Part shown: piece by piece, positions 12,652 to 62,334 of the stretch
How the letters are laid out: every line of letters starts with the position of its first letter
Numbering within the stretch: position 1 is the stretch's first letter
DNA from: Antedon mediterranea
Lineage: Eukaryota; Echinodermata; Crinoidea; Comatulida; Antedonidae
Reading direction: 5' to 3'
Assembly: GCF_964355755.1 (NCBI RefSeq)
Contig: NC_092679.1
Span: forward strand, 6,572,001-6,636,000
DNA: 64,000 nucleotides
The notes under the pieces: model-generated
Told to the model about the DNA's origin: nothing
The model's database searches: none
The model's input: only the letters and a program-made list of their open reading frames with translations
Made by a program: the position numbers and the translations under genes

Positions 12652-13562
12652 AAAAATGAATTGTTATAAACCTAATTTTATTTAGCAGAGGCCTAATTAA
12701 TAATTGAAAACGCAACCGGGCCTATAGATCCTTTTAATAGTATTCATAGGCCTAATGAAAATTACAATGCTTGCCATAAATAACAACACAGAAAAAAGAG
12801 CTATTTTACTGACTGTCTGTACTTCTATCTATCTTGCAGCGCCTTCGAAATAAAATAAGTTTTTGATTCAGATCATATTCATAAAATAATAATATATAGT
12901 CTCTAGCTATACATAAAATATTTTACGCAACATAAAAAAAACGTAACAAATTGTTCTTCAACCACAGTGTGACGTTGGGGGCGTTTCGAATTGTTTTGAG
13001 TATTTTTTTTGTGTGAAACAACGAATCGAGAGCGCGATGTTCAACTTGAAATTTACTTATTAAAACAACATTTCCAAAGCACTTGGTATGATTTTATAGG
13101 TAAGATTTTTTTAATGAAGTTTTGATGAAACTCCAAATTAATATAGTATTTGTAACGTTACTGGGCATACGTTTTAACTCTTAGTGTAAGCTAAGCCTTT
13201 TCGGTGTAGGCCTACTGGATTCTTTAATTTAAGAGGCGATGGGTACATGTCGGTTGTCGTAGAGAGTCTGCTTCAGCCATGGTCACTTCGCCCCAAATTT
13301 CTAAAGTTATCACCGCATAATATTACAGTACAGGAGGAACTGACTTCTCTATATAAATCCCCACATATTAGTATACATATAAAATTAGAACTTCATTATG
13401 TATAAAAATTAAAAACATGCGCTTGCTTGCGAATACCGGTCCGTAAAAGTGTGTGTTTTAGGTACACTACTGTATTTTTATTCCTCCATCCATACAATGC
13501 ATACTGGCAGTGGTACTCGAGATAGTATATTGAAATCTTTAGGTTAATTTTTTTCTTCAGGA
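12652..13562. other. 5' flank of MAP10, with probable untranslated first exon
   Basis: No coding sequence. A donor-like TATAG/GTAAGAT near 13100 and the acceptor TTTTCTTCAG just before the MAP10 start (13560) suggest a 5' UTR exon around 13000-13099 spliced to the first coding exon. Confidence 0.4.
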
Positions 13563-16500
13563 ATGGCTGAACTGGAAACCTTGTTTTCTCTTGAACTGGA
13601 TGTAGAGTTTGTTCGTGTGCAGGCATCTGGTGTTATCTGCAGAATACCAGCGGTAGCATTCCGGTTGATGGACTACCCAACATTACTTTTACATCACATG
13701 AGTCCAGTTAATGTTCAAAGAGTAAAAGACACGATCTCTGAAAATCAACCAGAAGGCCCAATGCCATCTCAGTTGAAAGAACTTAAAGACCACAGAGGAA
13801 ACTTTGTTTTCAAGAAAGGAAAATCTTGCTTATTTAAATCAAACATTGACAATTTGGTGGGACATTTAAGCAACACGCCTCTTTATGTCATGGTGCTTGA
13901 CATGTGGCCAACTGTACCAAAACTTGTCGGAAATTGTTCTGTCCCGCTACAGAATACCATACAGAAGATTAAAGCCGATGTGGAGAGGACTGGTATATCT
14001 GTTCCAACTGTTCATGGTGTCAAGGACATTTACAAAGTTTATAGCTTAATGGGAAGTGAAATTGGTTACGTCTCACTTGGATTTAAACTGTTAAGTCTCG
14101 GAGCCGGTTTAATATCACACATCCCTGAATCTTCAATCACCAAACCAGTTTCTTCTAAAACTACTGCAGATATTGCTGAAAAAACAGTGTTGCCAACTCC
14201 TAAGCAAAAAGAGAATATTGTACTGCAGAACTTAGAAGAGCTGTCTATTGTTGATGAACGTTCAAGAGAAAGAGAAACTGCAAAGGTAACCAGTAATTTA
14301 TTACGGTCATCTTCGACTCAAACCCGACGACGACTGGTGAAGCCTAGAGCACATACAGAACATAAACATTATGTACATGATGCGGAAAAACAACCTAAAG
14401 ATGACGATTTAGGTCTTTTCGTAAGCAATACTCTATGTCCACCGCCTCTTTTCTTTAATTCTAAATGCGAAGATTTACAAAAGAAAATTAATCAGACATC
14501 TAAAAAAAAAGATTCTAAACCAGAACCAGAAGAAAGTGAAGATTCATCTGTTGGTTTTGTAGAAACTCATTACATCTTTCCATCAGATATTAGTCAACAA
14601 TCAGTCAGAAAAGTTCACAGAAGAAATCGCTCTAAACCAGCAGTTATTGATTCAAAACCACAAACACAATCGGTTGGCGTTCAGAGTTCTCCAGATGTTA
14701 GAAGTATTACATCCAGTCTTATCAACCAGAACCTACCAATTTTAGCTGCCCTAATGAGGGAGCTTTCTGTTCTTCAAAGTAATCGTCCACTAGTAGTGCA
14801 GCCAAGTCATCCATCACATCACCAGAGTGTAAGAACACCGACTGTTCCTCTAAGAATGAATGATGAAATGGTAGGCGTGGAAAATGAGTCAGAAAAAGAA
14901 GATAGGTTGAAACATACTGATAAAGTGAAAGATGCGAGAAATAAACGACCTACTTCATCTAAGAAGAAGTCTAAATTAACATTTGGTATGACACACTCTC
15001 AGAAGCTCAGACTTCAAATGAACAACCCGGAGCAGCTTAAGACTCTAGAGAAAGAGGAATCAAGACAACAGAAGAACAATGGAAGGATGGGGTCCACTTA
15101 CAAAACCCTACTGACATCTCAGAAAGAGAAAGGGCACAGAAAAGGAAGAGATAGATTTGATGCATTTGCTCAAGGTAAGTCTAGTGTGTAAAGCTCTGTC
15201 TACATTATCAAATTTATGTGATAACAATACTTGGACATATCGCTACCATATTTGGGCACATCATACTTTTTTTGTCAAACTAGTTTGATAGTGTAGACAG
15301 AACTTTACTATACAGCAACCTGTTATTAGTTTTTTGCTAGGACTGACGACCAACCTAAGGTCAGGTCAATCAATGTGTCGTTGGTTATCGCCTGAACCTT
15401 CAAACCTGTATAGAGGTGAGGAGCGAGGATGTCCCAATATTCCCGCATCCGCACTGAATGAACATAGTTTAGTCGTCGATCGTCCGTAATTCCTTTTTGA
15501 CTATAATTTAATTTATGGCATATTATTTTGTAGAGAAAGACGAGTTGGAAAGCAACAAGGAAAATGAAACACTTTATGTTCAACCAAGACAGAGACCTGT
15601 ACCAGCACCTAGGCAATCAAAAGAAAGTTTGTCAAGCAAGAGTAATACAGAAAGAACATCTGAAGTAAAAGATGAAATTCAAAGTTATATGAGTGTTAGA
15701 GGTATTGATAAAAGTACTGATCAAGAAGAGTCAGTAAATGAAGAAAATAGTTGTCATAGCTCTAAAGGTAATTTTATTTCTGCATCAAAGAAAAGCTCAC
15801 TATACTGCTTGTTGGCTTATGTTTGTGTATGAAAATGTATAGAAATGCTTGGCTGTGCATCCCACCTTTAAAGACTTTCAGCTAGTCTAATGGTTATTTT
15901 AGAGCCTTGCACCCAGCCAAAGAAACCTCTGGGCACCCTGAAAATTAATAGTTTCCCCACCACTTGACTTCTCTAGCCACAACTCAGAACATTTCAATTT
16001 TGAGTTGTGTGTAAACTACTATGTTGCTGTTTTACATTTCTTTATTTTGTTTTTTAAAGATCAAAGTGAGGCAAGCAGTCGGATAATAGAGGTACATATA
16101 CCAAGTGTTTCAAATGACGAAATTTTTGACGATGAATCCAACATAACAAGTGACTTTACTGACCAATCAGAGGCTGGTGATATTACAGTTAATCATGTTT
16201 CCCCAAAGAAGACTGTACAGGTTCCTGGTTTCAGTGTAGAAACTGAGTCTCAACAAAACAATCCAGAAGGAAAGGATGAGGGAATGGATTTTGATAAAGA
16301 AAGAAAACCTTATGACGGTAAAGATAGGAAATTAGCCACAAACCAATCAGTGAGTGTTTATCCAGGCAAGCAGCAAATACGAAGAGTTGAAGTTTTGTCA
16401 AAAGACGATTTTAAAACAAAATCTGAAGAATTTGAAGAAGCTGAGGATGATGAAGGAGATGTTCTGGAAGGAGCACATTTTGAAGAGAATTATTCGACTG

Positions 16501-16982
16501 ATTTTGATGCTGTTGAAGATGACCAAGATAGAAAGAATGTTTTGGGATATGCTGAGTTTGAAGGAACGTATTCTTATGATTTTGAAGACCCAGATGCCGG
16601 ACCACTTGGAGTGGTTGATGATGATGATTACGGAATCGATAGTCTTGCCTCTCTCAGTACAACATCATCGTCGCCAGAAGAATCATCTGCAAGTCAAGTT
16701 AGTTTAAGGCAGCCGGTGCCACATGCCAGCAGACTACAGAAGGGAAGTTTAGCGATACCCAAACCAGTGCTTTCTTCAAAGTCTCCTCTGCCAAAGAAGA
16801 TTAAACAAAATGTTGATGTGTCGATGAACTTAGCAACCGGCGGATCTAGTTTGCAATCGGAATTCTTAACTGGAGATTCAGACATTTACCAGTCAACGAT
16901 AGGAACTGGTAGAACACGATCCAGTGACGATTATAATCGGTCAAATTCTGACGTACTTTCTGTTAGTAGCAAAGAATTCTAA
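13563..16982 (+). CDS. MAP10: microtubule-associated protein 10
   Basis: Three coding exons, 13563-15174, 15534-15767 and 16060-16982, phases joining exactly, give 922 aa (human MAP10 is about 905 aa). The N-terminal 180 residues carry the family signature: LFSLELDVEFVRVQ, PAVAFRLMDYPTLLLHH, FKKGKSCLFK, TPLYVMVLDMWP, LVGNCSVPL and EIGYVSLGFKLLSLG, matching human LFSLELLVDWVRLEA, AVAFRLLDFPTLLV and GRGKSCLF. The rest is disordered, basic then strongly acidic (residues about 700-850), and Ser-rich at the end. Known: MAP10 binds microtubules, is regulated through the cell cycle, and is needed for cytokinesis. The start ATG follows an acceptor AG directly. Intron 1 holds a MITE (15191-15307). Human MAP10 is a single-exon gene; here the tail is split. 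Confidence 0.88.
15191..15307. mobile_element. MITE family A, copy 1
   Basis: Ends are AAAGCTCTGTCTACATTATC and TTTGATAGTGTAGACAGAAC, inverted repeats of each other; the inside has CCATATTTGGGCA. Related copies are at 24284, 30754, 38663, 39943 and 52824. Confidence 0.8.
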
Positions 16983-18902: not shown

Positions 18903-21900
18903 ATGGCTGTCATAACAATTGCAATAGTCTTTTTCTATTCGTTTGCAGTCTGTCAAGGTAATTAATTCATTCGTTATTTTACATTTCCCGAGTAGGAAAA
19001 GGCGTTCACAAGTCAACCTTTAATTATGATGAACTATAGTTAATTAACTTAATTCTATTCTTAGTAAAGGTGTATCATCTTTAAAAAAAACTGTAAATGA
19101 GGTAATAGGCCTACCATACAGATTATTATAGTTCAAATAATATCTATGGGGACCATACTAGGCGTAGACCATAAGCAGATTGAAAATTGTTGTTGATTTA
19201 TCTTTGATGTTTTGACTTAGGCCTGAGACGAATGTCTGCTTAAGCCTACGTTACTGTTTTGCGAATGCAAATTAAATACTTTCATACTTGACTATATTCT
19301 GCCATTCTTATTCACATATAGGAGATCATTTACAGTCCATCTTGGTATGTCCAGAAGACGTGGAGACCCCGTTTGAAATCGAGGAAAACGGAACGTTTTA
19401 CGCTTCCGTTTCATGGGTTGAACCTTTAATAAATGTAACAGCAATCGGTACAAATCAATGGTCTTTAACAAGGATATATAACCCAGGTGATACATTCCCA
19501 CTTGGAGATACGGTGGTCGAGTACACTCTTTCAACTAATGCTGAATCGGCTGAGTGCAATTTTACCGTATCTGTTATTGGTAAGTAGGCCTACTTTGTCC
19601 CAAACTTTCCAATAGGCCTACCTTTGGAGTTGGTCATTCAATTGGCTCTCGGTAGGGCTGGATCCTGGGTTGCGCTTCCCTTTTGAATAACCCTAGATCC
19701 TCCTCTCAGTCTGAGGAAAAATGGCAATATTTTTCCTACTTTCTAGGATTTTTATCAGATAATCTATATTGTTTTGAACACTCTTGTAATAGGACCACAG
19801 TGCTCATTTTGCCATTTTTCCTCCAACTGCTCTCTGATAATATTGTAGCATTTTGTGTGTATGAGTCAATTACCCTCATTTACTGTCAATTCTCATTTAC
19901 AAGCCTACTGTATTCTACGAATGGTCACTCAATAATGTCATTGCTACATTATGTCAACAATTTGTTTTTAACTATGGGTTAGTGAAAATAACCTTAGTTA
20001 CAAAGGTGTTTTAAGTTAGTTAATAAAATCATTATATTTTAATAGTTTTTAGTACTGATGATGAAGATCTTTCTGAAAAATTAAGAAGTTGTTCATCTAA
20101 GAACTTTTCATTTACGAACTGCTTCTTTAATGTAAATGGGAAGGTCGACTGTTACGACCAAGATATATTTTACAATTATCTAGTATTTAAAAATAAATGT
20201 TAACTTTTTTGTTTAACCAGTTGTCAAGTACTTACTTGCTACGTTTCGGCTATTTTCAGTAGCATGTAAGTACTTGACAACTGGTTTAACAAAACAAGTT
20301 AACATTTATTTTTTAATATCCATTTGAAACCAGATGAAATTTTTTCAGAATTGTCTAGTAGTAATCGGGAAGTGTATATAACATAGTTGTTGGTAGATTG
20401 TATTATTCCATATAGTAAGCCACCAATACACCATACAAATGTTTTGATATAATGAAGAAATATAATAATGCCTTTAAAAGCTTTTATATATACAGCCCGT
20501 GGCATAGTTTACCTCATGAGCTATAGTTCTCACAATAAACAAACAAGTTATATATCCCCATTATTCGACATGAATAAAATGATGTACACAACATGGTAGG
20601 CCTACTCTGAATTTCTACAAGGTATCCCGTTTTTTTTAAAGCGATCCTTAAAAGATGTGGACATCTATAATTGTGATATTTCTCTATTTTTGGCTCAGAA
20701 GTATGCAAACATCTTCAACCTATTTGTTTGCATTGTAATTGTTTCTTTTAGCGCTGATGTACTGTATAACAGCGTGTTGTAATTCTCTTTAACGAGCAAA
20801 TTCAACGTAAGGTTTCGTTCTAAAAACAATATTGACAATAAAGAAATAATAATGGACATACCAACGTAGATTATACGTATTTAAGGTCTGCTCAGAATAA
20901 ATATAGCACAACAATATATAAGTTCAAATGTAGGTTACAGCTCAAAAAATCCTGAGACCTATTATATTTTAACAGAAAAAAGAAGAGCGAAACATATATA
21001 CATGAATACATTTTAACACAAATAGAGAAGAACAAAAAATATATACGTAATTACATTTTAACAGAAAAAGAGAAACTCAACCGCCAGTGATATAGGCCTA
21101 CTGTTCTTAAATTAAAAAGTAGTTTACAAATTCAAGGAAGGAATTCGAGAAGGAACATCCCCAATGAATGTATGCTTGAGGATAACCTGCCATTACCAAA
21201 GATTATAATAGCACTATGATCTTTGATTAGGACTACCATCCGACCATATGGCTGTCATCAGCTTTGTGGATTTATCACATCCTAAACAACCAACGCGGAC
21301 AATCTCTTACCGCAAACTTCGTAACATTGATCTAAATTGTTTTGTGGAAGATATAATGAATTCCCCGCTCGTCTGCGCACCGGAAGATAATGTCTCCGGT
21401 CTCGCTGACCAATACAATAATGTATTGCAGTACATCCTTGACCAACATGCTCCGTTAACAACTAAACTGGTCACCATTAGACCACGGGCACCATGGTACA
21501 CGAATGAACTCCGTGAAGCGAAGTGCGTCAAACGGAGATCAGAACGCAGAATGTTGAAATCTGGTTTGGATATCGACAAACAGAGGTACAAGTTGGAATG
21601 CAAAGCATATAAAGATATGCTAGATCTAGCAAAATGCAATTATCATCGCAATGAAATCGCTAATGCGGATGACAAGAACCTTTTCCGCATCATAAGTAAA
21701 CTGTACTCGGTCGATCCTTCTCCTGTTCTGCCAAAACACACATCTTCAATGGATCTCGCAAACCAGTTTGGCTGTTTCTTTAATGAAAAGATTCTGAAAA
21801 TTTGCAAGAAACTTAACTCCATAAACACTCCACTAATAACTGTCAACGTCGACGAGTCATGTAATAGTAGTTTCGCTGAATTTGAGCAAATATCAGAAGA

Positions 21901-24900
21901 TACGGTACGCAAAGTCATCGCTGAAAGCGCATCTAAGTCCAGTAGACTTGACCCAATTCCAACACGGTTACTAAAAAACTGCATTGACGCTCTACTACCG
22001 CATATCACTAAAATCGTCAACATGTCGCTGTCATCAGGTACTGTACCATCTGCATTTAAATTGTCCCTCGTTATGCCACTGTTGAAAAAGCAAAATCTCG
22101 ACTCCAACCTCCTACAAAATTATAGACCAATAGCAAATCTTCCCTTCCTTTTTAAAGTCTTGGAAAGAATTGCAACTGCTCAGATAAAAGCATATATGGA
22201 TGAACATTTCCTGTTTTCAAAAGTCCAATCAGCCTACCGCCGCTTCCACTCAACTGAAACCGCTTTATTACGTGTTACAAACGATCTACTACTTGCTTTA
22301 GACAAAGGTAATGAAGCGGTACTTATTCTACTCGACTACTCCGCAGCATTTGACACTATCAATCATGATTTATTATTTCAACGTCTTCATAAAAGATACG
22401 GCATAAGCGGAACCGCATTGAAATGGTTTATTTCATATTTTGAGAATCGTAGACAAGCAATCATTGTGGGTGATTCGATGTCTGATGAGTTCGCTCTACC
22501 CTGGGGTGTACCACAGGGATCCGTAAAAGGTCCACTCGATTTCATCTTATACACTGGACCACTCAGCAACATCATTGATTCCCACCCGGAAGTTCGTCAT
22601 ATGATCTATGCAGATGACACTCAACTATATTTAATCATGAAACCTACACATCACTCTGAATCTGTTAACAGCCTTGAATCATGCATTGCAGATGTTCGCT
22701 CATGGGCCATTCAAAATAAACTCATGCTCAACGACTCCAAGACTGAAATGATCCATTTTCATTCAAAGTTCCGTGAGGCATCATCATTTCCTTTGGTCCA
22801 TATCGGAGATACTAGTGTCTCTACCTCCAGCTCAGCCAGAAATCTAGGCGTCCAACTAGACAACAGCCTCGGTTTAAAAGAACACATTCGTAATGTTTGC
22901 CGTGGTGCTTCCTTTGGAATTTACCAGATCGGCCAGATTCGTAAGTACCTTGACAAAACATCAACTGAACGTCTTGTTCATGCTTTTGTTTCATCTCGTC
23001 TGGACTGTAATAACTCGCTTCTGTACGGCCTACCAACTTCTTATCTGTCTCCTCTTCAACGAATCCAAAATTCCGCCGCAAGACTTATCACTGGCACTAA
23101 ACGACATGAACATATTTCTCCCGTTTTACGTGACTTACACTGGTTGCCTGTTGATCAGCGCATTCGTTTTAAAATCCTGTTGCTGACATATAAGGCCATC
23201 AACGGATGTGCTCCAGCCTACATATGTGACATCATTACTCCGTCAACCAACTCTTCGCTTCGTTCATCCAGCAGACTTCTTCTAAAACCTGGACCCCGTT
23301 CCAGAACTCGGTTTTACGGTGATCGTGCTTTCGCTGTCGCAGCCCCAAAACTCTGGAACACTCTACCACTCGAAATACGCTCATCAAAATCTGTTTTCAC
23401 ATTTTAAACTAAACTCAAAACTCATCTCTTCAGAGAAGCATAATCGCACGCTACTACTTGCACTGATCTTGGAAAACACAGCGCTTTGAAACCTTTGTCT
23501 CTTGCGCTTTATAAATGTTATTTATTATTATTATTTATTATTATTATCATAATAATGATGATCTAAATACAGAATTATATTGGTCCAAAAAAGAAATTCG
23601 TTTCGTTGACGAGCTGAAACAATTATATACAATATAAAAAGTCATGAATAACAAATTACATTATGCCTTATATACTTTTAAACCACGATACCATCCTTTA
23701 TCATGACACAAGTCTACCGTAAATATATAGTTCATTAAATGTGTTTACAGATGATGAAGATCCAATACTTACAAACTGCCCAGGCAACCAAAAAATCGAC
23801 ATTATGGGAACTGAAACCTCAACTGAAGTCACCTGGACTGAACCATCGGCTACCGACAATTCAGGCAAGCTGACGGTTACTTCAACTCACGAATCAGGAG
23901 ATAGCTTTTATTCAGGAACGACAGACGTTTTTTATACGGCCGTCGATAGTGGTGGGAATTCTGTGCAATGCTCATTTCAAATCATAATATTGGGTAAGAC
24001 GTCATCATTATTTAAACCACATTTACCAAGAATTCATAAATTACCGTTTACTTTTAATAATGTATACTGCAAAAAGATTGATATTATCTCCGATAAGCTT
24101 GTTCCGTTTAAAGAAGATCGTGCCTGATTTCTATATATATATATATATATATTAAATTTATTGTTTTCTTTTTTCACAACAATTATGTTCAACAAACCTG
24201 TATACACTTGCAACAACTTGAAGCATGTTCCGAGTTTGTCAATAATTGTCAAAAATGTGGAGACCCTATCACTCTTCCTTATTAGGCTCTGTCTACACTA
24301 TAAAAGTATATGAACATGATGATGTTATATCACTACTATATTTAAGCATATTACTACAATATTTGGGCATATTACACATTTTAGTTTGATAGTGTAGAAA
24401 GAAAGTTATAGACCAATTGACAACCTGCAGAAAAGTTTGCAAAAGTCTATAATACTACAGTATAACAAACTGTAGTTTGCAGACTCGAACAAACTAAACA
24501 AAAGTTGGTATGCTGATGTATGTGTAGCGGTGTTCATTTATGTTTGGTTTTGAACGAATAAATACAATCATTTAAACTCCATCATGGTTTTTGATATCGA
24601 GGTGTCTATTCTTTAGTTTTTACACTTCCTAACATGTTAGTTAATTTCCATAATTTCTTCTTCACAAAGGTTATCCTCAAAATGTATACGCAAGGACCGA
24701 TAACGTCTACATAGTTGGTGAAGACGATAAAGTAATCACATCGAATGAGGTAGATTGTCTGATAGCTTGTATTGAAGAATCTGACTTTATCTGCCAATCA
24801 GTGGATTATAGAGATTCTCTTCAAGAATGTACGCTAAGCCGACAAGACATAGGGTTTGAAGGAATCACGATAGAAACAAATAGCAGTTTTGTCCACTGGA

Positions 24901-27900
24901 ACAGATTAATAGGTCAGTTTGTACCATAATATTCTTCCATTTCTGAACCAACAAATCTTTTTTAAGTTGTTCGGGTCACTTACCTTCACAAGAATCCCGT
25001 TAATATGTTCACTTTTGGTATTTGAATGTTATTAAAAATTATTCAAGCCTACATTGCTCAAAATATTTTACGTGCTTTCTCTTTTAAAAAACTTTTTAAA
25101 ATAAATATTTATTGACCATTTATTTGCATCAGTTTTCAAATTCCAGTATTTGTTAAAAACATATTGTCCCCCTTTTTAATGTTACATAATAGGTATCCAT
25201 TTTGACCAAAAACTGGATCGAAAAAAATATTTTCCAGACAAAATGTAATTTAAAGCAAAAAAATACCTAAATTGTCATTGTCCGACAATTGTTTTTGGTT
25301 GAAATTAACCGTTTCTTTTTATAAGTGAAATAATTATTTTTGTTGATTTTTTTTCTACAGAATTGAATAAATTGATTAAAACAGCAAATATAGTCTATTC
25401 AAAGTCTGATTTTTTCACCTTTATTTTTCATGTTTTTGGGGAACAAAAAACGCAATTATTATGTAATCTTTTATCTCATGCTTTATATCATTTTAACTCA
25501 TAATAATTGTAGCCCACTCTGTAGTCTTTTGAATCTTAAATGAATGAGTGAGTGAAAATGGACAGAAGTGTATTTGTTTTAATTAAAGAATCCATCATAT
25601 TATATCTTTGTCTATACAGATAACACTGATCCATCAGTTGAAGGCTGTCCACACGATTTGACTAGATCAACGAACGCTGGTGTTAACTATACGGCCGTAC
25701 GGTGGGAATTACCGGTGTTTAGGGATAGCTCTGAAATCGTATCTATAACAAGGACCCACAACTCGTCGGACATATTCTATATCGGTTCTACTGACATTAT
25801 CTACAAGGCTACTGATGCCTTCCAGAACAGTGCAACGTGCAAGTTTACCGTAACAATTGAAGGTAGAAAATAACATGTTAACAAATCAAATAAAGTGGAA
25901 TGCAGACTCTCCGATAAATAACCAACGAAATTAGCTAAGAAACAAATAATTTATGGACGGCAGTCTTTGCCCCTACGTCTGATGACATGAACCTAATACA
26001 CATTAGAGTTCGATTACACTAACTTCAATAACACTGTACTTTTTTATGACACTAGTTGTTGATGACATTATAACTGTTGATGACATTATAGCTGTTGATG
26101 ACATAATGGCTGTTGATGACACTAGCTGTTGATGAAACTAGCTGTTGATGACACTAGCTGTTGATGACACTAGCTTTCAATGACACTAGCTTTTGATGAC
26201 ACTAGCTTTCGATGACACTAGCTTTCGATGACATTGTAGCTGTTGATGACACTAGCTTTCGATGAAACTAGCTTTCAATGACACTAGCTTTCGATGACAC
26301 TAGTTCGATGACACTAGCTTTCGATGACACTAGCTTTCGATGACACTAGCTTTCGATGACACTAGCTTTCGATGAAACTAGCTTTCGATGACGCTAGCTT
26401 TCGATGACACTAGCTGTTGATGACACTAGCTTTCGATGACGCTAGCTGTTGATGACACTAGCTGTTGATGACACTAGCTTTCGATGACGCTAGCTTTCGA
26501 TAACACTAGCTTTTGATGACACTAGCTGTTGATGACACTATCTTTCGATGACACTAGGTTTTGTTAAACCTAAAAGTGCATTAATGTGTTTCTGCAAAAA
26601 GTTCTAAGTAGATCTTATCACTCATTCTTGCTATACCATGCGTGAACGCAACCATTTTTATACAGGCCTATTCTTTTCGTTTTTATCACTTTATCTTTGA
26701 TCTTTTTAACTCAATGCGCCGTGTTCCATTGTTGTTCTTAGGATAGCACAAACAGAATTATGATCTTGTTTTTTTACAGACACGGAAAACCCAGTTTTGT
26801 TCAATTGTCCCGAATCTATAAAATATGTGATTCCTGATCAAAACACGATGGAAGAAACTGACCAAATCACATGGGATCCGCCATCTTGTACAGACAATTC
26901 TTATACATATGACCTGACATCTACTAAAGAGCCAGGCTCGGTATTTACCAAAGGTGTTACCACAGTGACATATACATGTAGAGATGATGTTAATAATATC
27001 GGCACTTGTGAATTTACCGTGCTTGTGAAAACTATAGATGGTAAGTTGTGACGAAACAATTTTCGCTTTCCAAAGTTACGCTCTTTCAGTACCTTCTTCT
27101 CCTTCAATCTTAATTTTTCTGATTGCCTCCAATGCAATCGACAGATTGAGTATGCCTATTCGTATTATAGTTTGTAATAGCTAATAATTGTGGTGATCCG
27201 ATATAATTGAGAAAACTCGAATTTTTTACTGAAATTATTTTTTAGAACTTGCTCGGATAGACGTCCAAATAGAGTTAGCAAACGTAGCATTTTCCGATGC
27301 GTTATTGGACCGGCAGTCGGAGCAATTCAAAGCATTAGAGACCGACTTAATATACTTAGTAAGTATGTCTGTTTGTCCATGTTTTCATATTAGGCGAATA
27401 TACATCGAGCGTTTTGTGAATTATATTTAGAACGTGTTGTTGTTATGAACTATAAGATTCAGGGCAGAGACCACTTTCTATATTTAAGCCCGGTTTGTTC
27501 ACCATTATGATAAATAGTTACAGTTATACTGTCGGCCTAGTTTTTAAAAATACTGTTATTTCGTCTTCCAGATTTTAATTGCACTTCTTCTTCTTCTCCA
27601 CTTTTTATTATTAATATCTGGTTTTGCATGTTTGTTATTTTTATTTCTCTTTATCCACATAGATTACATGTCGTGGCTAGATGGAGCCAAATGTAATTTT
27701 TACACAGTATTCTGTATTGTTACGTGATATGTCTTTTGCCAAATAAAATGAAGCAGAGTTTTTTCACACCTAATATTCAGTAACTAACAATGAGTACCCC
27801 TTTCTCTTGATACTTGACATCACCTTTCATTTTATTTATGTAAACGATGAGTCAATTTACTTTAACAAAACTTCCAACTTTTGTTTGAAGAAGAAGTACT

Positions 27901-30900
27901 TGGAAACTACTCTTGTTTGTGTACTCCATTTTATAAACTTAGAAAAACATCAGCTAAGTAAACTGCAAATAACGTTCTGTTTAAGCGAGCTATTCGTTCC
28001 AATGAATACCAGTCACGGTGACTTAGGCCTATTATAACAAAACATCATGCCTGTCCACACACAACAATAACATCGGTAAAGCCACAATAATCAAACTATT
28101 ACCCTGTCTTTATGGTGGTCCTTTTTTATAGGAAAGTGTATTATCGAAGTTTACTAAAAGCAAACCTAGTTTTAACCTTTGTATTTATTATTGTCATTTG
28201 TAATTTACAAAGAAAATAAAAGACGTTGTCATTGTCAGCAAAATTACCAATTTGATGAGTTCCATTTGACCGAAACATGAGATTTATATTTATATACGTT
28301 CAATTTAAATTCTTATACAGTTCAATTTTCACATAAAATGCCTTTTTTGTATTAGATTAATGGCCTGTACGTAGATGAAGACAATTTTGAAGACAGTGTC
28401 GTTAATGATTTTAGGTATCGTAATGTTCAGATTTTACTTTTAGTGCTTTCCAATAACTAGACCTACTAAAATAAATGTTCTAATTCTAAGCATGTTGCCT
28501 AGGATTGTAACTATATGGTGACAATGAATTTACATACAATACTCATTTATTATTATTTATTTGTTATACTGGGTAGCCTCTTCAACCAAAGACCAGAGGG
28601 CCCAGTGTGAACTAGTACACCTGGGTAACCCCCTACTCGTCTCAAAAGATGTACTCGGTTCTTTAAAGTGCACATGAACCAGATGTGTACACTGGACCTA
28701 CGGTTTATAGTCCTTATCCAAGAAGACTCGTTCTACCACCAGAACCAGGGAACAAGGGATCTTCGAACACTTGCAGATGTTATGTACTTATTCTTCTACA
28801 TAAGCAAAGTCTTAACTTTTCAGAAAAGAAAACTTGTTTCAAACCCATTTCATTAAGTCCCGTCATTTAAAAATCACATTTCCACCTTACAGTTCTGGAA
28901 GTGTGATAGCAGACGTCACCTTGTTATATTTTAACGAGATAGACGAAGACCAACGGCGATATTATTTGGACATACTATTGACTCAAACAACAAACGGACA
29001 GTTAGGTGGTTTCAAGATTGGGAACATTTCAGTTGAAGATAATGGTAAGTTGCACCAGATAAAGTTAGAATTTGTATTGTAATTTTTACGTTTCATGAAA
29101 GTGGAATTGAATGAGAATCTAAATGAGCCATTTTTATTAACTTGGTTTGGTTTCTATTATCGGTGAATTTTTTAACCAATAAAGTGCGCATGATCAGTCA
29201 TTACCAAACCACCAGACTTCCAATCACATTGCAACAATTTGTCCATCAGGTCAAATGTTAAAATGATCGCATTTATCCGTTTATTATCGGTTAATTTTTC
29301 TCGAGTGGAATCGGTTAATCCCAGTTCCCACAGGCAGTTTATCGGTTTTAATTTTTGGTTGCGGAAACACGGCCTAAGTTACCGGTTTGACGCAACGCAA
29401 CCTTGGTTCCCATGAAGTGGACACATGACAAGAACGTAAGCGCAATGCCAGTTATTTGACCAATCGAGACTTGATAGATTGTCCGAACTTTCACTCTTGT
29501 TGGTCAACTAACTTACGTTGTTGCGTCTGAGTATTAGTTTTTTCATTGAGTTCGTATTAGATTAGAAGTGCAATGTTATGATTAAAAGAAGTGAATAAAA
29601 GTTTGTATAAATTGAATTAAATTGAAATTGTGTAAAGGAATTATTATTATTAGGTCTTCTAGTTGTATTACTTATTACTTCTTTCCAGAGTTTGTACCAT
29701 TAATATTGTGTCGAGTCTGTAATTGAACTAACCAAAGTCCGTTTAATATCCAATCTCTATGCTTGAATCAAAATAACAAACACGACAAACATCGTTAAAA
29801 TTCAAATGGAGGCCGTAAAATTTGAATGGTCGATCAAAGGGGGTTTACTATTTTGTTATTAAACGTTTAGTTTATCCCAATTAATCTGAGTAAAACTCAT
29901 CCTTTGGGGACACCTCTATTCAGGGGACACTGAAATGAACGAGGGAAATTATATGTTTCATCATTTCCGCCAACTGATTTTCAAGGGGTACTTTTGTACT
30001 TAATAGGGATTCTACCCCCCGTTCTACTGTATTAAAAAAACAAGTTGTTTGTTTGCAGGGGAATACGTTTTGGTGGATGCCTGCTACACCCTACCATGTC
30101 CAGAAGACATAGTGTGTCAGGCTGCTGGCTTACTTTGCACTGCACAATGTGATAACAACCCGGAATACTGCCTCAACGATGCAACCTGCGTCTCATCGGG
30201 TAATTTAATAGAGTGCAGGTATGCTTATTCAAACAGTACACCCAAATAAAGACCACCTTTAAGAGATATTTGCACTGGTGACAATTAGTAAAGTGCTAAG
30301 GCTTATAAGTGAGAAACAAAGTTCTTTACTTCTCGCAAAACCTTCACATTGAACCGCATTTAATTTTAGGTCTCACTAGCACGCAACGCAAGGACTTAAG
30401 TGCACCGCAAATAATTTGACCAATCACGAAGTGATGGATCGTTCTAATTGTCGCTTGTGATTGGTCAATTGACTTGCGTTGTGTCTGCGTTTTATCGACC
30501 CATGACTGGCACCAAGTATGCCTACTGTACGGTATGATCTAGCTACAATGATGTTTTTTTGTTTGTCTTTATAGTTGTACAAGTTCTGATTACTATGGCA
30601 TTAGATGTCAAATTGTTGATAAATGGAGTCGTAAGTATAATTATGACCCTTCCTTAAATAATTTGTGTTCATTCGTTGTAGTAGTTATCCCTTTACAAAA
30701 ATACATCAATAGACATAGATACACTTTACGGTCACATAATAAATATAAAATGTTAAGCTCTGTCAAATTTTATGTGATAAAAATGTGATGTTCCCATATA
30801 TGAATATGATGATGTCATCACTACCATATTTGGGCATATCACACATTTCTTGTCAAACTATAGTTTGATAGTGTAGACAGAACTTTAGACTCTGCTTGGC

Positions 30901-32052
30901 TTAATAGAATAGTATTCAATTTTCCTTCTTTTTGCAACTTTGTTTATTTTCTCTCAAAGATGCCGAAATAGCTGCCTTGACATTTGGATGTTTTTGGGCA
31001 GCGTTGCTGCTTGTCGTGCTAGTGTTGTTAATAATAAATAAATGTAACGAATATATACAGCAGCCAAAAAGGTAATTATTTCAATGAATTGCTTTCATTT
31101 AATAGACCACTTAATACCACATTATTATAAAGTATACTTGTAGGCCTAAGAACACTAAAAAAATAATATAAAAAATAATTCGTTTGAACGAATTGAATAA
31201 GCTATTTCGCCTAAAAAATGGGTTGTTACCTGTAATTCGTTGGAACGGGATTTTATATATATGTTAAATCGTTAAAACAAATTTTAGTTCCGTTTAAATT
31301 GACACCATTTTGACACTATTTTCGTTGAATTTGGTAATTCGTTTGAACGAATTTTAGTCCGTAATTACCTGCAGTGTCTATAAATAGGCTGGCCCGCCAC
31401 AAGATTTCTATCTTCGTGGGCACTGCCTACTTCCTTTTATTGATAACTGTTTACTTTTTAATCATCAATTTTTTCATTCATGACTAGTTATATATTTTAC
31501 TTGAATATAATATGTTTACCTAATTTTATTGAAGGAAGAAATAAATGTTAAGTTGAATCGAATTGAAAAATTCATTAGAACGAATTAATAACATCGTTTG
31601 TCCTAACTATAATATAATTTTACACTTATGTCAGGCACAGTTCGACTGATAGTGTAGTGGTTGAGAAATCCAATTACGAGAATAAGGCTTACGTCATAGA
31701 CCCATCTGCAGAAATACCAGATTCCATGGCAGTATTCGACATAGATGAAGATGATATCGATATAGGAGGGGAAGATAAAAACAATAGCGAAGATTTAGAC
31801 GAAGAGAAAAATACATACCATTACACTGGATCAGTAGACGACGAAAACAAAGATGAGGAGATTAGTATAATATTAGGCTCTACTGAAAAAGTCCCGTCGT
31901 TTTCAGGCTCGCTAGCCCATTCGTCATTGGGCTCGACTAATCGGATCCATTCGGCATCGGGTTCGACCAATCGGATTCACTCGGTGTCTGGGTCCAGTTT
32001 GCACCAGTCTCTATCAGGAGCTAGTACAAGCCGTGCGCCGTTGATCGCATAA
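18903..32052 (+). CDS. single-pass membrane protein: signal peptide, HYR x2, PAN, HYR x2, SEA, EGF, TM
   Basis: Thirteen exons, all phases consistent: 18903-18957, 19322-19579, 23751-23993, 24670-24912, 25620-25862, 26780-27040, 27246-27358, 28356-28414, 28893-29044, 30059-30218, 30575-30630, 30960-31071, 31635-32052; 790 aa. Residues 1-18 are a signal peptide. HYR (hyalin) repeats lie at about 19-104, 105-185, 267-347 and 348-434, with motifs such as CPGNQ, TATDxxxN-type ends (CSFQIIIL, CKFTVTIE). A PAN/Apple-like module at 186-266 reads CLIACIEESDFICQSVDYR. A SEA-like module at 435-542 includes GSVIADVTLLYF. An EGF-like module is completed across exons 10-11 (CLNDATCV, then CTSSDYYGIRC). 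One TM helix (FWAALLLVVLVLLII) precedes a 150-residue acidic then Ser-rich tail with two SGSTNRIHS-type repeats. Role unknown; adhesion or recognition at the cell surface is inference. Intron 2 carries a LINE. Confidence 0.85.
20046..20203 (+). other. candidate extra (alternative terminal) exon in intron 2 of the HYR gene
   Basis: After an acceptor at TTTTAATAG a frame compatible with the phase of exon 2 stays open for 52 codons. It reads STDDEDLSEKLRSCSSKN and contains TNCFFNVNGKVDCYDQD, then stops. It starts like the next HYR exon (DDEDP) and has four cysteines. No donor in the right phase is visible, so it would be a terminal exon or a relic cut by the adjacent palindrome. Confidence 0.3.
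20187..20316. repeat. long inverted repeat (snap-back palindrome)
   Basis: Arms of about 55 bp (AAATAAATGTTAAC, then AACCAGTTGTCAAGTACTTAC) flank a short loop containing CGTTTCGGCTATTTTCA. The right arm is nearly a perfect complement. Confidence 0.8.
21180..23560 (+). mobile_element. 5'-truncated non-LTR retrotransposon (LINE, CR1/L2-type)
   Basis: An open frame from about 21242 to 23407 encodes a reverse transcriptase. It starts inside the end of the endonuclease (SDHMAVISFVD) and holds LDYSAAFDTINHDLL, PWGVPQGSVKGPL, the catalytic YADDTQLY, and the C-terminal WNTLPLEIRSSKSV block. Most of the endonuclease and any ORF1 are missing, so it is a dead 5'-truncated copy. A TAA at 23405-23407 interrupts the expected end; in the same frame KLKTHLFREA follows before the next stop. 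The 3' end is a (TTATTA)n tail at about 23515-23560. It is inserted in sense orientation in intron 2 of the HYR gene. The long, nearly clean frame suggests recent insertion. Confidence 0.9.
24128..24155. repeat. (TA)n microsatellite
   Basis: An uninterrupted run of AT dinucleotides in intron 3 of the HYR gene. Confidence 0.9.
24284..24408. mobile_element. MITE family A, copy 2
   Basis: Ends are AGGCTCTGTCTACACTATAA and TTTGATAGTGTAGAAAGAAA; inside are ATGATGATGTTATATCACTA and ATATTTGGGCATATTAC. Confidence 0.75.
25185..25445. repeat. dispersed repeat F, copy 1
   Basis: Contains TTGACCAAAAACTGGATC, TTTAAAGCAAAAAAATACCT, CGACAATTGTTTTTGGTTG and TTTTTCATGTTTTTGGGGAAC. The same blocks in the same order and orientation are at 39515-39745. 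Class unknown. Confidence 0.65.
26050..26560. repeat. 16-bp minisatellite in intron 5 of the HYR gene
   Basis: About 500 bp of the unit TGACACTAGCTTTCGA and variants (TGACACTAGCTGTTGA, TGACGCTAGCTTTCGA). Units are contiguous with no spacers. Confidence 0.95.
28545..28668. repeat. dispersed repeat E, copy 2
   Basis: Reverse-complement relative of 5335-5500, with CTAGTACACCTGGGTAACCC, CCTACTCGTCT and AGATGTACTCGGTTCTTTAA. It lies in intron 8 of the HYR gene. Confidence 0.6.
29433..29527. mobile_element. MITE family B, copy 2
   Basis: Left part is AACGTAAGCGCAATGCC and TTTGACCAATCG; right part is TTGGTCAACTAACTTACGTT. Intron 9 of the HYR gene. Confidence 0.65.
30371..30495. mobile_element. MITE family B, copy 3
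   Basis: CTCACTAGCACGCAACGCAA, then AATTTGACCAATCAC; right side GTGATTGGTCAATTGACTTG and GTTGTGTCTGCGTT. Intron 10 of the HYR gene. Confidence 0.7.
30754..30887. mobile_element. MITE family A, copy 3
   Basis: AAGCTCTGTC start, ATGATGATGTCATCACTACC middle, TTTGATAGTGTAGACAGAAC end. Intron 11 of the HYR gene. Confidence 0.8.
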
Positions 32053-42000: not shown

Positions 42001-45000
42001 CTACATGGTGTAGTAGTTGCCATACTTTAGATTTGGCTATTGGGAAAAGCTGACATAAAATCGAATTAATTTATATATTTATAATTTTGAATTTATTTCC
42101 ATGATTTATTTGTTTGCGAAAGGTGGTGATGGGGTGTGTTGAGAGAGGCCCCTTGGTATACCCCTTACCTGATGTGTTGGGGGAGGCCAATTGGTATTGT
42201 GTGGGAGACCCTTTGGTATACGACTTACCTGGGGTGTGCTGGGTGGGGGGACCCCTTGGTATACTCCTTACCTGGGCTGATCTGGGGCAGGCCCCTTGGT
42301 TTACCTCTTACCTGGGGTGTTTTGGGGGAGGCCTCTTGGTTTACCCTTACCTGGGGTGTGTTGGGAAGGCCCCTTGGTATACCCCTTACCTGGAATGTGT
42401 TGGGGGAGGCCCTTTGGTTTACCCCTTACCTGGGTGAGCTGGGACAAGCCCCTTGTTTTACCCCTTACCCATTTCATCGGGCTCCACCAGCTTTGACCTG
42501 AGTGATCCTAAAACGGCACCTGCAATTCCAGCCAAGCTGCTCACAACCGGCACTTAAAAAAAGAAACCAAACAAAGACATTTAGTTATAAGCTGTGTAGA
42601 ATAAAATATATACCCTATGCTGTGAATTAAGAGGATACTGTAGGTGTTATAATATAATAAAACATTTAGATAGACATCTGTTGCCTCATTCAAAGACTTT
42701 CACTATTATTTCTTAAAATTAAAAACACAAAACATGAAAAAGGTTTAATAAAATAAACTGAATTAAGCCATTTTTAAGCCTGTTTTAATCAATTAATTTT
42801 TTAAAAAGGCAAAAAAAAAACCTAAATTTTTTTCCGGTTTTGAAAAACTTCACTTACAGACAATTCCGATTTACAATTTTTTCTCCTTAAATTTAGTTTT
42901 TTCTGAAAGCTCCAATTCCAACATTTATGTTTAACCATAATATGTTTCAAATTGTGTCGGCATTATGTATTAATGTTAATCTAACATGCATACTGTAGTT
43001 GTTGACATTTCACTCGTTATATTTCCCAAGGGGAAGAACATAATACAAAAGAAATGAGTATTATATAAATAGGTTGCTAGATGTTTCAACAACCATATGT
43101 GTTATCTAATGCTGCTGTATTTAAAAGCAGATACAGAATATATTTTAAAAGAAATGGAGAACTCTAAAAAAAGTATGTGTAAAGAGTAAACATGAAATAA
43201 AAATGAAAACTGTTATTTTAATTACTACATAAATAATTCTGTCATTCGTGTACACCTAAATTTTATACAGTAGAACCACTGTTTGGGACACCCCTATACA
43301 AGAATGCTCCTATTAAGGGGACACTTTAGCAAAGGGCAATATATTATATGTTCATAATTACACCCTTATTAACACTTTATTATGTCCTGAAGGTGTTCCC
43401 TTATTAGGGGTTCAATTTTATTTTATTTTCACAATATAATAACATACAGGATAATAAATAGTAAGTAATCATGTGGAGTTCTATTACCAGTAAATGTTTG
43501 TCTTTTTATTAAATTCAGAACAGTTTGTTTTTCTTTCATATGTATTAATGTTTTAGTGTATTGTTTAACTGGACTGTTTAACTGGACCATTTTAAAGAAC
43601 AATAGCGCTTTACTACTGGACATTCAAAAGGTATAGCCCATCATAGCTGAATTGTATTTACCATAATGTACAAAGGGTACCATAACGTATAAGGGGTACC
43701 ATAATGGATTGGCCTCTTACCCAACATCATGACAAAGCGCATAATACCTGCCCTACAGTATTTACTATAATGTATAAGGGGTGCCATAATGGATAGGCCT
43801 CTTGCGCAGCATCATGACAGAGAGCTTCATACCTGCCCTATTTTTCATAATGTACAAGGAGTACTATAATGGATAGGCCTTCTTACCCAGCATCATGACA
43901 GCTGTTGACTTGGCCATCGCTATCATAATGTAACCAGACATGTTAGAAGCGAGGCCTACGATTGTCAAGTTAAAATCGTTATCTTGCGTCCTTTGACTCT
44001 TAAAATGGAAGAGTAATGGCATTGTTATCAATAGCGCTGCTGCCCTCGCGATGTTACGTAGAGCCATGTACACTGCGATTGTAAATGTAGACCAGCTCAG
44101 AGGAGTGTGTTTTGTATATAACACTGTCAGTTCCATGTCACCTAAAAAGTATTAAAAAGTTAACAAACCAAATAAAATTTGAATCTCTTAAAATTTATGT
44201 GATTATTAAATGTCAAAGATTCTACTGCAGTTACTTCAGTAACTACATTATATTTATGCAATAGTGTATGCTTTTAGTTGGTTAAAATGTAGAGGTTCAT
44301 GCAGTTATGTGTATGATTTATACTTAATTTTTTTTTTAAATTAATATAAAAAATCAATTAAAATAGTTAGAGAAAGTACTAATTACTGCAGGAAATAATA
44401 ATAATTTGATATGGTTCCTTATATAAAGTTGGTGTGTAAACAGTAAATGAATATAAACTACCTGCTCCCACTGCAATAAGCAACATTCAACAATAGTACA
44501 AGTAAGCCTACTCTATACAATATATATCTATACTATATTACAACCAGCACAATCATGGATAATCATTGTAGCATAATATATTAGCATTCTCATATGTTGA
44601 ATTTTAATAAATCCATGGTTGTGTTTTGGAATATGACCCAATTAGTACAACGTTACCTATTTAACACAGAGGTCATTCATTCATTCTTTTCCAATATTTA
44701 CTAATTCAATGGTGGAACAAGTGTGAATAATATCATACATAACGTGACAAAAGGATGATGGTTATGTTTACATTATTGACGAGGAAATTAGACAACAGGT
44801 GTACAGAATCAATAGAGCATGGAGAAAGAACAAAAAGTAAGTGCGAAATGACCAATACAGACCGGAAAGCGCCAGCATGTGTAGCATAGCTATGACTTGC
44901 AAAAGCAGTAACCATTTCCGTTTCTTGTTTTCTCGCTCCACGAAACAGACCGTGAAAGTCTTGCGCATATTTTCTAAAACACTGAATCCAAACCCAGACA

Positions 45001-45706
45001 TCCAACCTCTTCGTTTGGCCATTGCATCTTCTAATTTTGAGGATAATCTCTGTTTCGTTGAAAGTGATTCGGGCAAAATGGCCAAAACATATCCTACAGC
45101 GGTTAGATTTAATAAAAAACAACATGCGTACACTGCGGGTATGCTTATTTTTTGAGCGATTGACCCTGCTAATAATAATCCAATTGTTCCTCCTAAGAAC
45201 ACCATAGATTCTAACATACCAAACCGCTTTGTTCTGTTTGAACTATCAGTAATGTCTGTGATGTAGCTAACTAACGCTACCTGACATGTCCCCATGCCAC
45301 CGCATATTCCTAAAGCAAAACTGCTTATTAACATATATCGAATTGGTAAGTCGGTATAAAAGGAGTTTATCATGAAATTTATTGATGCAACACAAGCACC
45401 GATTAATGGAAATGCAATAATAGTTCTACGACCAAATTTATCACTTGCTGCTCCTAAAATAGTGCACATTATGGCTCCAGGAATGTTCATAGCTAAGTTG
45501 AGTTTGAGGATCCAATGTGACGTCTTGGATTGTACCTGGTTCTCCAGTTGTGGATAATTACCGAGTTCCTGACATATGCTGTCATCGTGTTCTTCTAGGC
45601 AGACCTTGCGTAGCAGAAGGAGTTGCGTCACTGGTATCTGCATCATAAGACTAGTGATGAAGAGAAAGAGAACTGGTTCTACGGTCACTTGTCTACAACA
45701 ACCCAT
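39039..45706 (-). CDS. SLC46-family MFS transporter (proton-coupled folate transporter-like)
   Basis: Six exons on the minus strand: 45706-44863, 44141-43887, 42552-42469, 40263-40107, 39456-39401 and 39121-39039; phases join exactly, 492 aa. The start is ATG at 45706; an in-frame TTG three codons upstream is not needed. The first exon holds the N-terminal half of an MFS fold with the loop 2-3 signature GAASDKFGRRT (residues about 85-95) and ALGICGGMGTCQVALVSYI. The C-terminal half includes SLAGIAGAVLGSLRSKLVEP, NNMYPATLDFMPGFSFL and an acidic cytoplasmic tail ending LYDLKSCEG. The SKLVEPDEMGAMFA stretch fits the SLC46 helix 10-11 region. Known members import folate (A1) or lysosomal/muropeptide-type substrates (A2, A3); the substrate here cannot be told. 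Two of its splice donors are embedded in tandem repeats. Confidence 0.88.
39515..39745. repeat. dispersed repeat F, copy 2
   Basis: Same-orientation relative of 25185-25445: TTGACCAAAAACTGGATC, TTTAAAGCAAAAAATACTTA, AGACAATGGTTTTTGGTT, TTTTTCATGTTTTTAGGGAA. It lies in the last-but-one intron of the SLC46 gene. Confidence 0.65.
39943..40093. mobile_element. MITE family A, copy 5
   Basis: The most complete copy: AAAGCTATGTCTACACTATC start, ATATGGACATGATGATGTCA middle, TTTGATAGTGTAGACAGAGC end. It lies right next to exon 4 of the SLC46 gene. Confidence 0.85.
40502..40731. mobile_element. MITE family D
   Basis: GTGGCCGTATTCACCA and its exact complement TGGTGAATACGGCCAC bound a 230-bp AT-rich element with no coding capacity. 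Intron of the SLC46 gene. Confidence 0.75.
42122..42480. repeat. minisatellite of splice-donor-like units next to SLC46 exon 3
   Basis: About 30-35-bp units on the plus strand of the form CCCCTTACCTGGGGTGTGTT plus GGGGGAGG. On the gene's strand each unit contains CAGGTAAGGGG, a near-perfect 5' splice site. Seven such units follow the true donor (ATGG/GTAAGG, exon end 42469). Confidence 0.95.
43690..43905. repeat. 80-85-bp tandem repeat containing the SLC46 exon 2 splice donor
   Basis: ATAATGGAT-AGGCCT-CTTACCCAGCATCATGACA type units begin at 43701, 43786 and 43866. The last is the true exon 2 end and donor (exon end 43887). The copy at 43701 keeps GGGTAAGAGG on the gene's strand; the middle copy has lost the GT. 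Confidence 0.9.
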
Positions 45707-47918
45707 TGTGTTCAAAGTGAATCAACGACGTACCGTTTCAGAGTTCCTTCAAGTGCAGTCCTTATGAAAGAAAATACAAGTTAATTTTTACTTTCTTGGG
45801 AAATTAAAATGTATCAAATAAAACATTCAGTACTATATTTTAAGATAACATTTCTCACTGAAACCAGTCTACCTCTCTCTAATATGAATAAGGGTAGGAC
45901 AGGGTGTCAGAATCACCTTGATTTCTCAGTGAGTATTAAAGGAAATGGTTGACCTTTTTACTTATAAGTGGTATATAAACAAAACCCTCATTATTCTGTA
46001 TGATGCTATTCATCAGGAATGTCTATTTATCCTGATACTTGAACTTTGGACAACACGATTTGTCTATTTAAATTTTATGTCTTCAAATGATGCGGGTGGG
46101 CTAAAGCTTATAAAGGTTAGTTTGTTTTTGTTGCTAACCTTTTTTAAACAACTGGCTATAAATTTTATAATAAAAAATAATAAAATACCAGCATATATAT
46201 AGAGTTATAAGCGATACATAGCATTAAAGTACTCGTTATGCCCAGAAATAAGAGATTTTAATTAAAAATATCATTCTAGATAATTTCATATTTTTTGTAT
46301 TGTATATATTTATTTCAAATATAAATTCAAAGGCAAATTACTGAAAAAATGTGACCCAAGACTACAAAATGGCTGTAAAGTCATCATATATAAAAATTGT
46401 GATTTTATTATAATCAGAAAAATAATTACATAAGCTTTAAAATGAGGGGTAGATTATTTAAATTGAGCGCCTAGAAGCAAAGTGGGTATCAGTGGCTGGA
46501 TCTCAATAGAGATACAAAAAAAAAAAGCGAAAAGCTAAATCAAAACGATGAAGTAAAACAGGCAGAAAAATTACCAGAGCTTTTGGGCAACATTAAAATA
46601 TATATATATATGTAACATTAATATTAGTGGTTTGAAAATGATTAAATATGAATTTAATAATTTGTTAGATGTAAAAATAGTTGGCCTACATTGTAACATG
46701 TCTTTATGAAATTGAATAAATTTTAAAAAAAACCTGAATGAAAAAATACATTTAGAAGAATTGAATAATATTATAATATTAATGAATAAAATAGATACCC
46801 ACATTTAAGTGTCACAGTACTCAACTCACGCTATATGATACTCTTATTTTTAACAGCATCGTCGTGTTTATGATAGCAACATAACACCACAAAATCAACC
46901 TGCACCAGACATTTTCGGAACAATTTAAAGTCCCAAATTCAGCGATAAAACACCCCTACCGGTTAAGTAACGTACTGTAAAAGTGTATAGAAAATAATTA
47001 TGCTGGTAATTTCGTTGTTACGCCCCCAATACAATAACACTCTGCATGCATATGGAAAAGTTTGTGTGCCCTTGATGGGCTGTTCGATTATTGTATGGGG
47101 ACACTCACAATATACTTATTATTATTTTTATTAAATTTATAACCGTAACTTATATAATTATTTATTTTATTTCAATAGAACATATTGTTAACATGTCTGT
47201 TTTATTTTCTTTATACAAATATATGTTTATAAGGTTATTTACAAAATCTTTTTTATACATTTTACCAATTGTTTTTTGTTTGAGACCGGAAGTTACGTCC
47301 TCGTGATGGTAAACATAGAAGGCGACGAAGCATGACACGAATACGATAACACCACCAAAATGCATTCCAACGATTTTGTAGTATTATTTTAAAGTTTACT
47401 TTTTTGTTTTTTAAATGTTTGAAAGTACAAATAATCGATCTGCAACCCCCTGCCTTAAATAGGTAAATTGTTTATGTTATTTAAAGTTGTATAAAGTTCT
47501 TCACACCGAGGTTAAAAAACAGTTATTGCTTGGTTATTCTAAGCCAGCAAACATATGTGGCTGTACTGAGATTTCAGGGCGAAAACCGCCTTTTGCCTGG
47601 CAGAAGTGAGTTAATGAACACTAGGCTAGGCATCTGCTACACCCTAAACTTGTTATTAATGTGTTATAATAATGTTGTGATTTTGTCGTTGATTTAATGC
47701 ACTAACATACCTTTGTAAGCTTTAATAATTGATTCATTTAAAAAAAAATTATTTAAAAAGATTAATTTTTTCCATGTGATGTACTTATTTCATTTCAAAT
47801 AATTGCACATATTAATAATAATAATGAATATTAATTATTATACATACTGTAATAAATGACTGATGCTATTCTATTCTGTAGTAGGTGAAGCCTCTACAAT
47901 CTGTTTAGTAAGTCAACA
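45707..47918. other. divergent intergenic region, SLC46 / stonin
   Basis: AT-rich. Promoters and 5' UTR exons of both genes are expected here. A small minus-strand frame is listed separately. Nothing else is seen. Confidence 0.45.
47162..47365 (-). CDS. possible small membrane-protein ORF, unrecognised
   Basis: 67 codons beginning MHFGGVIVFVSCFVAFYVYH, a single hydrophobic helix, then a polar KKDFVNN-type tail. No family was recognised and the second half is AT-driven. It may equally be chance. Confidence 0.18.
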   Translation of the reverse strand: MHFGGVIVFVSCFVAFYVYHHEDVTSGLKQKTIGKMYKKDFVNNLINIYLYKENKTDMLTICSIEIK

Positions 47919-61551: not shown

Positions 61552-62334
61552 TTATTTCTTCTCGTCGGCTTCTTTATCTATTAATGCGGAGCGAATGCCA
61601 ATCTTCTGCAGTTCTTCTATTAACTCGCCATTTTGATGCATCTGTAGCATGATATCGCATCCTCCTAGAAATTCTCCGTCCATGTAAACTTGTGGTATTG
61701 TGGGCCACTCGGAATAATCCTTGATACCTTGACAAATAAAAAAGATTTTGCAAGTAAAATAACTTTTTAAATAATGTACTGTAGTATTCAGTAAGGTTTG
61801 TTAACATGCAATACTAATTGTATCTACATTTTACATTATTACTATTTTATAATATAAGATACAGTAATTAAAAAATCCAAAGAGGTTACAAAATGCATTC
61901 CAACATGACGACCCCCATCCTTCTCTCTCTGAATACCAGTACAAACAATGTGATGTCTGCTTTCTTAATTTTACTTAGGCCCAGGGTGGGGAGAGGTATT
62001 AATTTTACACATTCCTGCTAATATATATTATTAAGCTATAACAATACGTTTTGCCATTTATTGTGTTACCAATACCTTGTCGTAAATCGTCATCATCCAA
62101 AACATTATGACTTGCAAAGTTCACATTGTGCATTTTGAGGATCTGTACAACAGCATTGCTGAACCCACACATCGGCTGCTCTTGATCACCCTTCATAAAA
62201 ACGACGACTTTATTGTCTTTAACTAAAGATTCTATGTTTTCTTTAGAACCTGCGTTTGCAGAAAATAATCTAAATGCTGACAAACGTGGTAAAGTTTGTC
62301 TTAAAAGCGGTGATATACGATAAATTGAGTTCAT
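61552..62334 (-). CDS. GLRX5: mitochondrial monothiol glutaredoxin 5
   Basis: Two exons on the minus strand, 62334-62076 and 61727-61552, phase-matched, 144 aa (human 157). Residues 1 to about 28 are Arg-rich without acids ([19 protein letters not shown]), a mitochondrial presequence. The glutaredoxin fold includes [16 protein letters not shown] with the CGFS active-site cysteine at residue 56, then [20 protein letters not shown] with the TVP-like cis-proline and the GG of the glutathione site. Known: GLRX5 transfers [2Fe-2S] clusters from the ISCU scaffold and is needed for haem and Fe-S protein biogenesis. It shares a short divergent upstream region with the ankyrin gene. Confidence 0.96.

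Follow-up and report, generated by a model that had tools for sequence, protein, structure and literature searches.

A crinoid cell-surface protein gene with a PAN exon within its HYR array and a SEA-EGF-transmembrane tail

The forward strand between positions 18903 and 32052 of the window (the whole 64-kb stretch of Antedon mediterranea DNA analyzed here) raises the question of whether HYR, PAN, SEA and EGF modules and a transmembrane (TM) helix really belong to one protein and, if so, how unusual their combination is. The 13 exons and the continuous 790-residue frame of the preliminary description were recovered at the same positions, all with AG/GT borders, and the spliced frame comprises 790 codons plus a stop, without frameshift or internal stop and with 24 of 24 splice sites intact. 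Exon 1 (18903..18957) holds the start codon and the signal peptide, the latter seen as a hydrophobic N-terminal leader. The next five exons encode one ectodomain module apiece and have phase 1 on either side: HYR1 in exon 2 (19322..19579; 39.2 bits with the exon scored alone), HYR2 in exon 3 (23751..23993), a PAN_1 module with four cysteines in exon 4 (24670..24912), HYR3 in exon 5 (25620..25862) and HYR4 in exon 6 (26780..27040; 261 nt). Both the symmetrical phases of exons 2 to 6 and the shared length of 243 nt in exons 3, 4 and 5 were measured as first described, with HYR2, HYR3 and HYR4 assigned from the spliced frame, Pfam and a HYR profile built here. The SEA module is distributed over exon 7 (27246..27358; phase 1 to 0), exon 8 (28356..28414; 59 nt, phase 0 to 2), which has the same length and phases in a relative on contig C2 (see below), and exon 9 (28893..29044; phase 2 to 1), where the spliced frame contains the cleavage motif SSG|SVIADV. 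Exon 10 (30059..30218) encodes a Cys-rich stretch (residues about 549-572) that precedes the EGF module and, from Pfam and the alignment to the C2 gene, the first part of that module, which ends in exon 11 (30575..30630; Pfam on exons 10-11) together with a juxtamembrane stretch. The single TM helix (residues about 618-640, by hydrophobicity) lies in exon 12 (30960..31071), and exon 13 (31635..32052) provides the stop codon and an acidic, Ser-rich cytoplasmic tail, with 27 Asp/Glu and 27 Ser among the last 149 residues.

Pfam, run on the spliced protein with its curated cut-offs (21.7 bits for HYR PF02494, 21.4 for PAN_1 PF00024, 26.4 for SEA PF01390 and 21.5 for EGF PF00008), largely bears out the proposed order HYR-HYR-PAN-HYR-HYR-SEA-EGF-TM. 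Four HYR stretches score 179.6 bits in total; PAN_1 scores 29.7 bits, or 36.3 when exon 4 is taken by itself, and SEA 35.0 bits, or 39.9 for exons 7-9 joined. The EGF module is weaker, with 18.4 bits in the spliced protein, and passes its cut-off only when exons 10-11 are scored by themselves (23.6 bits). Taken singly, none of exons 7, 8 and 9 reached E = 1 when the genome was scanned for SEA in six frames; recognition of the domain only when they are joined supports the exon model. With the HYR profile, the window yielded no HYR exons beyond these four, and Pfam found neither GPS nor 7tm domains in the spliced protein, where the one TM helix is followed by the tail and the stop codon. Neither the whole protein nor the SEA module gave a meaningful match when searched against PDB sequences, and an AlphaFold model of the PAN exon, made without an alignment, was set aside at a pLDDT of 37.

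The introns and surroundings of the gene have some features of their own. The large intron 2 contains a non-LTR retrotransposon reverse-transcriptase open reading frame (21227..23407, forward strand; RVT_1, 96.1 bits) that is not part of the protein, and intron 5 a minisatellite in which a 16-base unit is repeated about 30 times (26046-26561). Retention of intron 6 would stop the frame just past HYR4 (27041-27060) and leave a soluble HYR/PAN protein. Neighboring genes in the window encode a protein with a MAP10 N-terminal domain (13551-16982, forward strand; 54.8 bits), a major facilitator transporter (44771-45721, reverse strand), a protein with an adaptor medium-subunit (stonin-like) domain (54471-56348, forward strand) and a glutaredoxin (62008-62364, reverse strand).

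The assembly, of 354 Mb in 18 contigs, gave no match to mitochondrial COX1, and its expansion of HYR is compatible with an echinoderm or hemichordate. To place the protein within this genome, we compared it by tblastn. Outside the HYR modules, the whole protein matched at its own locus only, and so did the segment from SEA to TM, apart from weak matches over the Cys-rich/EGF part. This is a genuine animal gene, present in a single copy and encoding a type I cell-surface membrane protein. Most of the HYR modules that match its own best belong to one long gene of the HYR-SEA-EGF-TM type on the same contig (L036, C10:11.86-11.89 Mb), while the two best relatives of the PAN module (E about 1e-4, 31-39% identity) both belong to other PAN genes. 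Among the matches listed from the HYR and PAN genome searches (at most 150 each), only this PAN module has a HYR exon closer than 70 kb.

The tail has a different relative. A gene at C2:6345000-6355000 (L040+L041, with L041 upstream) has one exon in which Reeler scores 22.2 bits (cut-off 21.0), then a Ser/Thr-rich stretch and a SEA domain (52.0 bits), and a TM helix beyond a Cys-rich/EGF-like stretch. From SEA to TM, the two proteins align with 27% identity over 202 residues, and the part of the alignment before the TM helix scores 173 against 31.7 +/- 5.7 for shuffled sequences. The six exon phases are identical in both genes (1-0, 0-2, 2-1, 1-2, 2-1, 1-2), as is the 59-nt length of the middle SEA exon. 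Among the SEA domains compared, that of the C2 gene is the nearest to ours (z score 12.6); five others, linked to HYR, gave 0.9 to 9.6. Judging from alignment and exon structure, the SEA-Cys-EGF-TM tail is homologous to that of the C2 gene, the closest relative found here, although the EGF of the latter is without its last cysteines and its head consists of Reeler and the Ser/Thr-rich stretch, with no HYR or PAN seen. The intron just before the GS motif would not by itself be diagnostic of this cassette, since the SEA of a serine-protease gene (L042) also seems, by eye, to have one. Our protein is distinctive in joining a HYR head to a tail that we otherwise encountered in a Reeler gene.

The SEA module was proposed to be of the type that often cleaves itself, and the loop between strands 2 and 3 indeed carries an intact GSVIA motif, with the G|S site inside SSGSVIADV. 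The same loop is the self-cleavage site in MUC1 and, by motif, in ADGRF1 and ADGRF5, with the sequences GSVVV or GSIVA, and the cleaved halves remain associated until they are pulled apart by force (PMC6954182). The motif alone is no proof of self-cleavage, because cleavage depends on folding strain; by analogy with these proteins, cleavage probably takes place as the ectodomain folds and would probably allow the head to be shed.

Exon phases and lengths were also compared across the genome, as the equal lengths had been taken, together with the phases, as a pattern of exon shuffling. Of this claim, the phases stand and the lengths do not. With the best-scoring splice sites, 105 of the 131 distinct HYR modules in the loci examined are phase 1-1, and 243 nt is the commonest length among these phase 1-1 exons (37 of 105). 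HYR2 and HYR3 are therefore ordinary HYR exons, and their equal lengths carry little meaning. Of five PAN exons examined elsewhere, four are best called phase 1-1, but their lengths vary, so that coincidence is the simplest explanation for the 243 nt that the PAN exon shares with HYR2 and HYR3. Symmetrical phase-1 modules, on the other hand, fit the shuffling pattern and make it easy for PAN to enter between neighboring HYR exons.

How unfamiliar the architecture is depends on its recurrence. In this genome, 16 of the 26 SEA matches have a HYR exon 1.4-4.6 kb upstream, a count in which some matches come from near-identical duplicates and two from one gene. Several of these HYR-SEA loci were read, as exon lists from open frames rather than as full gene models, and two types of continuation were seen. 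In L036 and L038 (C1:39.14 Mb), a HYR array and SEA continue into EGF modules, another SEA, this one bearing a GS motif, and one TM helix, an arrangement that resembles that of our gene. Unlike it, they contain a larger number of HYR modules and several copies each of SEA and EGF, no PAN was seen in them, and their SEA domains have no separate 59-nt middle exon, the GS motif being in the last SEA. In L031, L034 and L037, HYR modules and a SEA with a GSVIA motif, as in our gene, run on into GAIN-like exons, but GPS and 7tm_2 replace EGF and the one TM helix, and there is no PAN. On their predicted exons (in L031, Pfam gives SEA 36.9, GPS 58.9 and 7tm_2 56.1 bits), these three are adhesion GPCR genes of the form HYR-SEA-GPS-7TM. 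The adhesion GPCR set with HYR arrays, SEA, GPS and seven-helix domains is expanded in this genome (C1:6651500-6668000, L031+L048; C8:18634000-18650000, L034+L051; C1:39561000-39577900, L037+L049).

A full-text literature search turned up one described protein of similar plan. The sea urchin Ebr1_5 (egg bindin receptor 1-5, SPU_006534) is described as having seven HYR repeats, three of them under positive selection, one SEA and a TM segment, and is termed only a putative egg receptor (PMC5521101). Compared by this published description, it shares HYR repeats, a single SEA and the TM segment with our protein but has seven HYR, and PAN and EGF are unmentioned (PMC5521101). Membrane mucins with a SEA (MUC1 and the MUC3/12/13/17 group) have in it a GSVVV-like self-cleavage site beside the membrane, similar to the motif here. 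The order SEA-EGF-TM is that of the MUC3/12/13/17 group and is shared by our protein; however, membrane mucins have mucin tandem repeats, whereas the ectodomain of our protein is made of folded modules, with a HYR/PAN head and without a long Ser/Thr/Pro tandem-repeat stretch. In the open-access literature, we found no description of a protein uniting HYR, PAN and SEA or of HYR with SEA in adhesion GPCRs, and nothing relevant on hyalin, PAN and exon shuffling. The preliminary view that the combination is unfamiliar, and that no described receptor has it, therefore holds for the PAN part and not for the remainder: HYR-SEA-EGF-TM and HYR-SEA-GPS-7TM recur in this genome, and Ebr1_5 is HYR7-SEA-TM (PMC5521101). 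What is left as unusual is the single PAN exon that separates HYR2 from HYR3.

We regard the protein, with a fair degree of probability, as a type I glycoprotein with an adhesive, PAN-extended HYR head on a mucin-type self-cleaving tail, that is, a breakable and sheddable adhesion or recognition receptor. The head is taken to be adhesive because HYR and PAN modules elsewhere bind proteins or sugars. The PAN exon would have been inserted between two HYR exons via matching phase-1 introns. The SEA would cleave itself at G|S during folding, its halves being held together non-covalently, and force on the bound head would release it, which would make the receptor breakable. By analogy, the likeliest putative ligands would be a carbohydrate or glycoprotein on matrix, microbes or gametes. 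A more specific version, in which PAN within the HYR array gave a new specificity to a lineage-specific recognition receptor of the gamete or immune-cell surface whose head is released on binding, seems to us quite improbable.

Other explanations place the same modules in a different context. Gametes might carry the protein on their surface, where it would serve sperm-egg recognition as a HYR-SEA-TM protein of the egg bindin receptor (Ebr1_5) type that has gained a PAN; the seven HYR, one SEA and TM of Ebr1_5, with positive selection in three HYR, speak in favor of this (PMC5521101). Yet with HYR-SEA-TM so common in this genome, the module order is no specific mark of gametes, and Ebr1_5 itself is only a putative egg receptor (PMC5521101); we consider this identity unlikely. 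That the exons are the ectodomain of an adhesion GPCR is suggested by the several HYR-SEA loci that run into GPS and 7tm_2 (58.9 and 56.1 bits in L031), but here the frame runs from a single TM helix through a long tail to the stop codon at 32052, Pfam detects neither GPS nor 7tm in the protein, and the next downstream open frames are WD40-like, which leaves this reading with next to no probability.

The integrity of the gene can be questioned in two ways. If exons 1-6 encoded a secreted HYR/PAN protein and exons 7-13 a separate SEA-EGF-TM gene, the 205-nt intron 6 would be the boundary, and when it is retained the frame does end soon after exon 6 (GKL-stop), from which a soluble form could result. 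Against two adjoining genes, the donor and acceptor of intron 6 are good, the join is in phase 1 as in the other head modules, neither AATAAA nor ATTAAA is present in the intron, and no new leader is seen before exon 7. The single gene originally claimed is retained, and a split is very unlikely. A decayed or unexpressed gene, to which the retrotransposon inside intron 2 might point, is extremely unlikely given 790 codons free of frameshifts and stops, 24 intact splice sites and domains above their cut-offs.

An adhesion or recognition receptor with a breakable ectodomain thus remains our preferred account. The gene is a readable case of module shuffling, in which a PAN exon stands among HYR exons with matching phase-1 introns and both head and tail have recognizable relatives elsewhere in this genome. 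Most of the SEA domains detected here sit behind HYR arrays, in adhesion GPCRs and in single-pass receptors, and this abundance of HYR-SEA points to a family of cell-surface proteins, beside the sea urchin Ebr1_5.
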